Below, in pieces: positions 34,401-38,326 of a DNA stretch of 64,000 bases (the first letter of the stretch is position 1; each line of letters begins with the position of its first letter). The notes beneath the pieces were generated by a model. The model did not search any database. It was not told the DNA's origin and saw nothing but the letters and a program-made list of their open reading frames with translations. The position numbers and the translations under genes are program-made. The DNA comes from Alkalicella caledoniensis (GTDB lineage Bacteria > Bacillota > Proteinivoracia > Proteinivoracales > Proteinivoracaceae): the NCBI RefSeq assembly GCF_014467015.1, contig NZ_CP058559.1, positions 2,232,001-2,296,000 on the forward strand, written 5' to 3'.

Positions 34401-35855
34401 ATGTACATCAAGAAGTTAAATAAGTTACTAACTGAAAAAGAAATATCCTGTAAAGAACTTACAGAAATCTACATAGAAAAACTAGAAGCCTTAGATAAAA
34501 GCATATCTGCTTTTATCACAATAACAAAGGATGAAGCACTTAAAAAGGCTAATGAAACTGATGAAAAAATAGCACAGGGACAGGCTATTGGATTACTTGA
34601 TGGGATTCCCATGACCCTAAAAGATAATATAAGTACCAAGGGAATATTGACTACAGCAGCATCGAAAATGTTAGAAAACTATATACCGCCATACAGTGCC
34701 ACTGTTTTCAACAAACTATCAAAATCAGTATTGCTTGGTAAGGTTAATTTAGATGAGTTTGCAATGGGGACATCTACGGAAACATCATATTTTTACAACA
34801 CTAAAAATCCATGGGATCTGAACAGGGTACCTGGTGGTTCCAGTGGTGGGTCTGTGGCATCTATTGCCGCTGATCTTGCAGTATTTTCCTTAGGCTCCGA
34901 TACAGGGGGGTCTATCCGCCAACCGGCAGCTTTTTGTGGAGTTGTGGGGATGAAACCTACCTATGGTTTAGTATCTAGGTATGGTGTGTTTTCTTTAGCG
35001 TCATCTCTAGATCAGGTGGGACCAGTCACTAAAACTGTAGAGGATAGCGCCCACGTGTTAAGTGCAATTTTAGGACATGATTCCTTAGACTCAACTTCCT
35101 CAAACATAGATAAATTAGACTATAACATGGCCCTTTTACAAGACTTAAAAGGTATGAGGATAGGAATCGCTAAAGAATTTCTCCCCAAAGAAATAAATCC
35201 TACAGTAAAAAAAGCTTTTAACAAGTCAGTGGAGCTACTAGAAAGTTTAGGTGCTAAAATAATTGAAATAAGTCTCCCGCATATGGATCTAGGTTTAACT
35301 GTGTATAGTATAATAGCGTACTGCGAAGCAGCGTCAAACTTGGCTAGATATGATGGTGTAAGATTTGGTATGTCTTTGGATGAATCCCTAGATACAGTGA
35401 CAGAAGCTAGAGCAAAGGGATTTGGGCAAGAGGTTAAAAGAAGGATTATGCTGGGAACATTCTTCCTACAAGGGGGAAACTACAAAAAGTACTATGAACA
35501 AGCAAAAAGTGTTCAGGGGTTAATAATCAGTGACTTCCAGCGGGCTTTTGCTCAATGTGACTGTATATTAAGTCCAACTACATTGGACACTGCCTTTGAA
35601 AGTGGGAAGGAGATAGAGCCTCACTTAATGGCTCTAAACGACTTGCTTACAATACCTGTAAACCTCGCTGGATTACCTGCCATGTCCATTCCCTGTGGTT
35701 TCGACTCTAACGGACTCCCAATAGGACTACAGATAATAGCAAATAAGTATGAAGAAGGGAAAATGTTTACTACAGGCCATAACTATCAAATTCATACAGA
35801 TTTTCACCTTCAAAAACCAAAGATAGTTGAAGGGGGAATTATAGATGGTTTTTAA
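34401..35855 (+). CDS. gatA: Asp/Glu-tRNA amidotransferase subunit A
   Basis: 484 residues of the amidase signature family. It releases ammonia from Gln for transfer to the mischarged tRNA held by GatB. The Ser-cisSer-Lys triad regions are seen: GIPMTLKDNI (Lys), PGGSSGGSVASI (Ser nucleophile) and SDTGGSIRQPAAF (cis-Ser). Its stop overlaps the gatB ATG by about 10 bp, indicating coupled translation. Confidence 0.97.
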   Translation: MYIKKLNKLLTEKEISCKELTEIYIEKLEALDKSISAFITITKDEALKKANETDEKIAQGQAIGLLDGIPMTLKDNISTKGILTTAASKMLENYIPPYSATVFNKLSKSVLLGKVNLDEFAMGTSTETSYFYNTKNPWDLNRVPGGSSGGSVASIAADLAVFSLGSDTGGSIRQPAAFCGVVGMKPTYGLVSRYGVFSLASSLDQVGPVTKTVEDSAHVLSAILGHDSLDSTSSNIDKLDYNMALLQDLKGMRIGIAKEFLPKEINPTVKKAFNKSVELLESLGAKIIEISLPHMDLGLTVYSIIAYCEAASNLARYDGVRFGMSLDESLDTVTEARAKGFGQEVKRRIMLGTFFLQGGNYKKYYEQAKSVQGLIISDFQRAFAQCDCILSPTTLDTAFESGKEIEPHLMALNDLLTIPVNLAGLPAMSIPCGFDSNGLPIGLQIIANKYEEGKMFTTGHNYQIHTDFHLQKPKIVEGGIIDGF

Positions 35856-37284
35856 ACCAGCCATAGGACTTGAAATACATGTGGAGCTACTAACATGTAC
35901 AAAGATATTTTGTGGATGTAGGACAGATTTTGGTGCAGCGCCCAACAGTCAGCTATGTCCAGTATGTCTTGGTCTCCCAGGGGCTCTTCCTGTCCTCAAC
36001 GAAAAAGTTGTAGAGCTAGCTGTTAAGACTGGTCTTATTTTAAATAGCCAAATTAATTACTATAGCAGCTTTGATAGGAAGAATTATTTTTATCCTGACT
36101 TAGTTAAGGGATATCAAATAACTCAATATTACGAACCTCTAGCCCGAGGGGGATACTTAGATATTACTAAGGGACGAATCAATAAAAGAATAAGAATAAA
36201 TCGAATCCATATTGAAGAAGATGCAGGTAAGTCCATACACTTAAGTGAAGAAACCTTACTAGACTATAACAGATCCGGAGTCCCTTTGATGGAAATAGTA
36301 ACAGAACCAGAATTTGAAAGTGGTGAAGAGGTAGTTTGTTTTTTAGAAAGGCTCAGAGAAAAACTAGTCCATGGAGATATATCAGACTGCAAACTAGAAC
36401 AAGGGAGTCTTAGAGTTGACGTGAATATATCTTTATCAACTAAAGGCAAACCACTAGGTAAAAAAACTGAAATCAAAAACATAAACTCTTTTAAAAATAT
36501 CGAAAAAGCTATTACTCATGAAATAAAGAGACAAGCTAAACTATTAGAACATGGTGAGGATATAAAGGAGCAAACCCTTGGATACAATGATAAGGATAAT
36601 TCAGTAATTATTATGAGGGACAAGGAAGCCACAAATGATTACATGTTCTTCCCTGAGTATGATTTACCTAATTTAGTGCTAGAGGAGAAATACATAGAAG
36701 AAATAAGAAAAAGTCTTCCAAGGGACACCCAAGATATTCGCCAAGAGTTAATTGGACTTGGCTTAAGCTTGAATCAAATAGATAAGATTCTAAAGACTAA
36801 GGGAATGCTCCAATATTTCCATGGGATATTTGAAGAATATAAAGACTCAAATAAAATAGCGAACATCTTGTTTGGTGATTTCTCTAGATATTTAAATGAT
36901 AAGAAGATTAGTATCGAAAAAGTAGCATTACCACCAAAGTATATTAGCGATCTTTTACAATTGGCTGACGCCGGCAAAATAAATAGTGTGGCTATGAAGA
37001 AGATACTTTTCGAAATGTTAGCATGTGACCCAAAAGCTCTTGTTAAACCTGAGTATTTAATAGAGAAACTAGATTTGTCTCAGACATTTAGTGAAAAAGA
37101 GATAGATGAAACAGTGGATAAAGTGATAAATGATAATCAAGGTGTTGTGGAGGATTATCTAAATGGTAACAATAAAGTCTTTAAATATCTTATGGGTCTA
37201 ATCATGAAAGAAACAAAAGGAAAAGCTAATCCTACGATATTAAGGGAAGTCTTAAAAGGTAAACTAGATAACAAAAAGGAATGA
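35845..37284 (+). CDS. gatB: Asp/Glu-tRNA amidotransferase subunit B
   Basis: 479 residues. GatB binds the mischarged tRNA, phosphorylates its carboxylate and amidates it. The N-terminus FKPAIGLEIHVELLT, the zinc-site Cys residues in KIFCGCRTDFGAAPNSQLCPVCLGLPG, and DYNRSGVPLMEIVTEPE are diagnostic. The C-terminal YqeY-like helical tail is present. It overlaps gatA and ends in a terminator. Confidence 0.97.
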   Translation: MVFKPAIGLEIHVELLTCTKIFCGCRTDFGAAPNSQLCPVCLGLPGALPVLNEKVVELAVKTGLILNSQINYYSSFDRKNYFYPDLVKGYQITQYYEPLARGGYLDITKGRINKRIRINRIHIEEDAGKSIHLSEETLLDYNRSGVPLMEIVTEPEFESGEEVVCFLERLREKLVHGDISDCKLEQGSLRVDVNISLSTKGKPLGKKTEIKNINSFKNIEKAITHEIKRQAKLLEHGEDIKEQTLGYNDKDNSVIIMRDKEATNDYMFFPEYDLPNLVLEEKYIEEIRKSLPRDTQDIRQELIGLGLSLNQIDKILKTKGMLQYFHGIFEEYKDSNKIANILFGDFSRYLNDKKISIEKVALPPKYISDLLQLADAGKINSVAMKKILFEMLACDPKALVKPEYLIEKLDLSQTFSEKEIDETVDKVINDNQGVVEDYLNGNNKVFKYLMGLIMKETKGKANPTILREVLKGKLDNKKE

Positions 37285-37306
37285 CCCTAAAAAGTCATTC
37301 CTTTTG
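37273..37306. terminator. Terminator after gatB
   Basis: AAAAGGAATGAC pairs with GTCATTCCTTTT around an 8-nt loop. The stop codon lies in the stem. Confidence 0.85.
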
Positions 37307-37451
37307 TTATCCACAGAGAAATTCAATTGAAAATATAATTTGAACTATCGTTACTAACAATAAGACAAGTAATCCACAAAAATTACCCACAAAAGGGAGA
37401 TATCCACATAAATTTTCCTTGCAAAAGATAAATGAGCTGGTTTTATCCACA
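37307..37451. promoter_or_regulatory. Cluster of DnaA-box-like sites
   Basis: Five sites in 145 bp share one orientation: TTATCCACA at 37307 and 37443 (perfect consensus), and TAATCCACA (37370), TTACCCACA (37383) and ATATCCACA (37400), each with one mismatch. They lie between the convergent gatB and hslO genes, so promoter control is unlikely. A DnaA-titration or DnaA-reactivation locus is possible. Confidence 0.6.
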
Positions 37452-37453
37452 GC

Positions 37454-38326
37454 TTATATGCTATTTATTATTTCTTCCAGATCTTTAACGGAGAAATCAT
37501 AGTTTTCGCCGCAAAAGTGGCACTCAAGGCTTATATCCTCACCATCATGTACAATTTCTGTTAGCTCATCTTTACCAAGGCTCATAAGACTACGGGCATA
37601 TCTGTCTTTTGTGCAGTTGCATTTGTAATTTAAATCCACTTTTGCTAATATTTCTGGGTCTAGATCCCCCACTAACCAGTCTAGCATAGCTTCAGGGGTC
37701 TTAACATCCAATATTAAATCAGTGACACCTTTAATAAGGGAAAGCTTATCTTCTAAGATTCCTATTTCTTCGTCGGTGGCTCCAGGCATAATCTGTACAA
37801 GGAAACCACCAGCAGCTATGATGGAGCCATCTGTGTCTACAAGCACACCCAGTCCAAAGGATGAAGGCTTTTGCTCTGATTTAGCATAATAATAAGTTAA
37901 GTCCTCAGCTACTTCTCCTGACACTATATCCATACTAGAAGTATATGGCTCTCTAAGCTTTAAATCCTTAATAACTATCAGTTTTCCACTACCTACACCA
38001 CTAGAAACATCTATTTTGCCTAAACTGTTGGCAGGTAAGGATATATCTGGGTTATTTACATAGCCCCTTACCTCACCTACGCCAGCATCAGCGAAAACCT
38101 GCCCTAAAGGACCGTCACCATCTAACTTTAAGTTGATGCGCTCTTTGCCTTTAAACTCAGAGGATGCCATCAACAAAGAACCAGTCATAAGCCTACCTAG
38201 GGCAGCTGAAGCCACTGGATACAGTTGGTGCCTATCCCTTGCTTCTTGAACTAAATTAGTTGTAACTGCAGCTAAACAACGAATATGTCCATTGGCCGCA
38301 GTACTATGTATTAAATAATCTTTCAT
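37454..38326 (-). CDS. hslO: Redox-regulated chaperone Hsp33
   Basis: 290 residues. Hsp33 is a cytosolic holdase switched on by oxidation of its zinc centre. The four zinc Cys are present as KCNCTKDR and ECHFCGE near the C-terminus. The N-terminal domain contains IRCLAAVTTNLVQEAR and GALGRLMTG-like sequence (here SAALGRLMTGSLL). Start at ATG 38326 after GGAGGCTTTTTCCC. Probably monocistronic. Confidence 0.95.
   Translation of the reverse strand: MKDYLIHSTAANGHIRCLAAVTTNLVQEARDRHQLYPVASAALGRLMTGSLLMASSEFKGKERINLKLDGDGPLGQVFADAGVGEVRGYVNNPDISLPANSLGKIDVSSGVGSGKLIVIKDLKLREPYTSSMDIVSGEVAEDLTYYYAKSEQKPSSFGLGVLVDTDGSIIAAGGFLVQIMPGATDEEIGILEDKLSLIKGVTDLILDVKTPEAMLDWLVGDLDPEILAKVDLNYKCNCTKDRYARSLMSLGKDELTEIVHDGEDISLECHFCGENYDFSVKDLEEIINSI

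Follow-up and report, generated by a model that had tools for sequence, protein, structure and literature searches.

The DnaA-box clusters (DBCs) of B. subtilis, such as those at gcp/ydiF, ywcI/vpr, ywlC, and yydA, each comprise several intergenic DnaA boxes outside oriC and lie in the oriC-proximal part of the chromosome. A DBC is defined, as quoted in the available text of PMC7561715, by at least three boxes with a mean distance below 100 bp. According to the accessible parts of PMC5295017 and PMC13220808, deletion of six DBCs in B. subtilis causes early initiation, which is partially relieved when one of them is re-added. The same parts of PMC5295017 describe this phenotype as strong only with all six DBCs gone and state that clusters with significant roles had not been identified there. 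For six strong non-oriC sites of this bacterium, the available sections of PMC4447404 give 4–11 boxes. In E. coli, datA consists of five DnaA boxes in non-coding DNA away from oriC, and DARS1 and DARS2, likewise non-coding and located away from the origin, are small clusters of three or six boxes, joined in DARS2 by IHF and Fis sites (PMC4585315, available text).

The locus analysed here shares several of these properties. It is part of a 64-kb stretch of DNA, referred to below as the window, which spans positions 2232001–2296000 of a genome (G000) represented by one contig of 3,695,371 bp. The original prediction had placed two perfect TTATCCACA boxes and three boxes with one mismatch between the convergent genes gatB and hslO, and we recovered all five on the + strand within 145 bp (37307–37451) with an A+T content of 70% (Table 1). 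The successive boxes are spaced by 63-13-17-43 bp. With five boxes and a mean start-to-start distance of 34 bp, this window cluster falls within the DBC definition; its five predicted boxes compare with the 4–11 of the strong B. subtilis sites, the five of datA, and the three or six of the DARS loci. Its gene context differs from that of datA, which adjoins tRNA genes; no tRNA was found in the 64-kb window. In B. subtilis itself, the ten strongest DnaA sites given in the available part of PMC4447404 do not include the gatB-hslO gap. The variants represented by boxes 2 and 4 recur around dnaA of the same genome, whereas the box 3 variant, TTACCCACA, was not found there. The terminator-like hairpin at the gatB end folds on the + strand with −21.9 kcal/mol (z −8.1), and a terminator scan called it on the − strand at 37305–37274. 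An Rfam match to RsaJ was below threshold (17 bits versus 100) and was rejected.

Table 1. Features of the gatB-hslO gap (window positions) and of the box group inside bshC (locus and contig positions)
Feature	Position	Strand	Description
gatB	35845..37284	+	ORF; Pfam GatB_N 1e-109; 3' end borders the cluster
Hairpin, terminator-like, at gatB 3' end	37267..37311	.	3' arm runs into box 1
DnaA box 1	37307..37315	+	TTATCCACA, perfect
DnaA box 2	37370..37378	+	TAATCCACA, one mismatch; variant also three times around dnaA of this genome
DnaA box 3	37383..37391	+	TTACCCACA, one mismatch
DnaA box 4	37400..37408	+	ATATCCACA, one mismatch; variant also once around dnaA
DnaA box 5	37443..37451	+	TTATCCACA, perfect; 2 bp off the hslO stop codon
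hslO (Hsp33)	37454..38326	-	ORF; Pfam HSP33 7e-90; convergent with gatB, 3' end at 37454
bshC box group	L008:2946-3108 (G000:C1:1289445-1289607); L080:2381-2543; L081:2261-2423		three genomes, two genera

The number of boxes in the genome is unremarkable. G000 contains 88 exact TTATCCACA sites versus 74 for the reversed word, and 1731 versus 1656 sites when up to one mismatch is allowed. The word is hardly enriched genome-wide and it is therefore the clustering, rather than the count, that constitutes the signal. Under a Poisson model that assumes even base composition, 0.0012 clusters of five sites in 145 bp are expected in the whole of G000, and 7e-5 with all sites on the same strand. Across 20 sampled 20-kb stretches of the genome (400 kb), the maximum number of same-strand sites per 145 bp was two, and 60 permuted words never exceeded three sites in the 464 kb formed by these stretches and the window. 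The stretches around 20 other exact boxes of G000 contained none with more than three boxes in 200 bp. The window as a whole holds 36 sites versus 22.2 ± 5.1 after shuffling, a number reached in 1 of 100 shuffles. Similar box density throughout the genome, which the original prediction had named as one observation that would count against it, was not encountered in the sampled 400 kb; the density of the window cluster lies above the genome background, as for a DBC.

A shorter pattern does not serve as a cluster marker. The raw three-CCACA pattern matched G000 at 41 places on both strands, equal to the 41 matches of the reversed control, and was abandoned; discrimination comes only from full 9-mer boxes. 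Sixteen of the 41 matches lie in a 6-bp minisatellite and three in a 32-bp repeat. The former is a six-base minisatellite, (CCACAR)n, with about 20 units on the − strand (G000:C1:1822820-1822938), and the latter consists of 32-bp direct repeats with the unit CCACAAAACTAACACTCAAAACCCTATGTG plus two bases (L236:629-761; G000:C1:1713278-1713410).

The position of the cluster on the chromosome was defined relative to dnaA, which is found at 1.927–1.928 Mb on the − strand and is followed by dnaN. Box clusters flank dnaA on both sides (about 1.926–1.929 Mb), an arrangement that resembles the bipartite origin of B. subtilis described in the available text of PMC5295017. The window cluster is 341 kb, or 9.2% of the chromosome, away from dnaA/oriC and thus oriC-proximal, as are DBCs. 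Of the 16 4-kb bins of the window, 15 have a positive GC skew, and cumulative skew rises through the window, as expected for a fork travelling from dnaA through the window; the single slightly negative bin (−0.03) holds the cluster and its two adjoining − strand genes. The claim that the locus is not a standard oriC is borne out by the 341-kb distance to dnaA, dnaN, and their box clusters, together with the absence of a skew switch within the window.

A lack of conservation in close relatives had also been named as counting against the prediction, and such a lack is what we observed in the relatives compared. Our family sample comprised five genomes including G000, the other four belonging to other genera, and the window cluster was present around hslO in none of these four (0/4). 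Only one of the four, G002, was seen with gatB adjoining hslO (based on Pfam matches), and its gap is without any box; the other three have no cluster near hslO, and gatB was not seen beside hslO in the stretches fetched from them. None of 59 hslO loci, mostly clostridial, contained three boxes in 300 bp. A BLAST search with the 169-bp gap against six class genomes returned only the gap itself and short pieces, the next best with an E value of 0.024, and a search with the gatB-hslO gap against plasmids gave no match. As far as can be seen from these comparisons, the window cluster appears lineage-specific.

Six places in G000 contain exact boxes no more than 150 bp apart, namely oriC, the 3' end of tsaD, the side of a yabE-like gene, the window cluster, and the coding frames of bshC and recJ. 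The cluster behind the yabE-like gene, which encodes DUF348, G5, and DPBB domains, spans G000:C1:1741624-1741779 (L006:1625-1780) and is a likely twin of the window cluster. It is located on the opposite arm, 187 kb (5.0% of the chromosome) from oriC, and its boxes are spaced by 73-12-18-44 bp versus 63-13-17-43 bp. Of the five boxes in the twin, three match perfectly and the remaining two deviate at two positions each. Each cluster starts at a strong hairpin, and the boxes of each are directed away from oriC. The four-box cores of the two clusters align with a score of 30.5. None of 2000 controls with relocated boxes attained this score, and when the boxes were fixed and the bases between them shuffled, 0.4% of controls did (p=0.004); the likeness had been noticed, by its spacing, before it was tested statistically. 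BLAST of the window gap did not report the twin. The likeness may reflect either a common origin by duplication or a shared functional geometry, and both are possible. When the yabE-like genes of the four relatives were inspected, the boxes of the twin were not observed there; for two of the relatives (G001 and G002) the loci were cut short (2978 and 3099 bp). When the core of the twin was searched for more loosely in 11 genomes, the only three matches came from G000: the window cluster, the twin, and a site at 2031387, which falls within the frame of an aldose epimerase, has two boxes, and was dropped as a further twin.

The largest non-oriC cluster of G000 is located at the 3' end of tsaD (gcp), at G000:C1:1435924-1436122 (L005:1925-2123), 13.3% of the chromosome from oriC. 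It contains nine boxes with up to one mismatch, seven of which are perfect. B. subtilis too has a DBC at this gene: the available part of PMC4447404 describes in vitro binding of DnaA between the 3' ends of gcp and ydiF, with 10 boxes, a Kd of 0.15 uM (ATP), and a DNA recovery that at 55 nM was 16-fold higher for ATP-DnaA than for ADP-DnaA. Within the class, all 11 scored genomes (11/11) carry 7–9 boxes with up to one mismatch within 250 bp at the tsaD 3' end, nearly all of them in antisense orientation relative to the gene. An example of their spacings is 9-12-44-9-35-45-9; intervals of 9, 12, and 42–45 bp recur in many tsaD clusters. These 11 were taken from 13 genomes, G005 being left out for its weak tsaD match; G007, in which the tsaD reading is broken, yet eight boxes are present, is also not among them.

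We extended the tsaD search to 398 genomes of the phylum (scored tsaD loci of class and phylum together: L092-L102, L150-L172, and L173-L232). In a first set outside the class, 16 of 22 loci showed three or more boxes per 250 bp no more than about 600 bp from tsaD, the 22 being 23 of the loci returned minus L170, which extends just 43 bp downstream. In a second set of 60 loci, hand-picked among the matches listed and including two shorter ones, 36 reached the same box density downstream of the gene, within about 950 bp. The cluster is therefore present in 52 of 82 phylum loci and, with the class, in 63 of 93 scored genomes, a sample of better-scoring matches that is non-random and includes some close relatives (the boxes of L152 are identical to those of L153); the other 30 phylum loci are without the cluster. 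Of the 192 boxes in the 36 positive loci, 178 lie antisense to tsaD. When 40 permuted words were scored as a control, at most one of the 60 loci qualified (mean 0.025). Among the 33 loci formed by the 11 class and 22 phylum genomes, the 600 bp upstream of tsaD never held three boxes in 250 bp, and a single locus had three boxes in the coding frame. Among the open-access papers listed in our literature searches, we saw no report on conservation of the tsaD-linked cluster. Its distribution, its recurring spacings, and the gene end that it shares with a strong B. subtilis DnaA site suggest a cell-cycle element older than the sampled genera.

Boxes were also observed within coding frames. In bshC, four boxes with up to one mismatch are common to G000, G001, and G002 at equal alignment positions and in three reading frames (Table 1), although the G000 protein is only 51–52% identical to its G001 and G002 counterparts. 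Among 1000 permuted words compared between G000 and G001, none shared four positions, two shared three, and 969 shared none, and this group resembles a DnaA-box cluster that has been retained within a coding sequence. The recJ coding frame (2784322; L007:1823-2205) contains three perfect boxes within 383 bp. We dropped a further three one-mismatch boxes grouped at 2788151-2788321, which fall within a RelA/SpoT frame and include no perfect box.

We put a probability of roughly 0.6 on the window cluster being a DBC like those of B. subtilis, located outside oriC and titrating DnaA, titration being the best inference as to its role. The predicted B. subtilis-type cluster is supported by its density, its position, and the likely twin, to which we add the recurrence of two of its three variant boxes at dnaA, the tsaD cluster, and YabA, which we identified in all five family genomes. 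Counting against this are the lack of conservation, the three variants among its five boxes, and the two weak boxes of the twin. DnaA would take the two perfect boxes first and then cooperatively fill the three weaker ones. Because the locus would be replicated early after initiation, its duplication would leave less free DnaA, possibly chiefly in the ATP form, for oriC, and the next initiation would be delayed as a result. The titration load would be shared with the likely twin at the yabE side and with the older tsaD cluster.

Passive titration by itself needs no fixed spacing, and intervals of 12–13, 17–18, and 43–44 bp are common to the window cluster and the likely twin, just as those of 9, 12, and 42–45 bp recur in many tsaD clusters. 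Such recurrence would be compatible with DnaA assembling there into a defined complex that acts like datA or DARS. A geometry-dependent element that alters the nucleotide state of DnaA, whether by datA-like inactivation or by DARS-like reactivation, and holds its spacing fixed for this complex nevertheless appears unlikely: cooperative binding alone may preserve spacing, and B. subtilis is reported, in the available text of PMC13220808, to be without Hda, IHF, datA, and DARS. For DARS-type reactivation at the window cluster we found no specific support. A wider reading, possible but doubtful, is that the non-oriC clusters share a spacing grammar (9, 12–13, 17–18, and 42–45 bp), with an ancestral tsaD cluster kept in similar geometry across much of the phylum and younger copies, such as the window cluster and its twin, derived from duplication of a four-box module; the fixed geometry would then mean that DnaA forms a defined complex, making these clusters active regulators of DnaA in Gram-positive bacteria rather than mere sponges.

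The absence of the cluster from the four family relatives, with its three degenerate boxes and the two more degenerate ones of the twin, would also fit a selectively neutral remnant, either a duplicated DnaA-binding module or a chance cluster surviving in the gap. We regard this as quite unlikely given that two perfect boxes flank the core and that the core spacings match within 1 bp at two loci on opposite arms. Box 1 overlaps the 3' arm of the hairpin and the likely twin starts at a hairpin too, so that DnaA bound there might form a roadblock where gatB transcription terminates, or control read-through towards hslO. Such a transcription device is improbable, as the hairpin is strong already, the remaining four boxes extend as far as 140 bp past it, gatB and hslO both end here, and promoter-like sites are at chance level (3 versus 1.9 ± 1.5). 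A cryptic or secondary replication origin, to which a box cluster in AT-rich DNA might point, is hardly credible with dnaA, dnaN, and flanking box clusters at about 1.926–1.929 Mb and a cumulative GC skew that climbs through the window with one slightly negative bin of 16.

These clusters bear on how bacteria such as B. subtilis, reported in the available part of PMC13220808 to be without Hda, SeqA, datA, and DARS, time their replication. As a DBC, the window cluster would be a modest new member of the set. The tsaD-linked cluster is the more useful of the two, as a place where titration and active control may be compared in many species.
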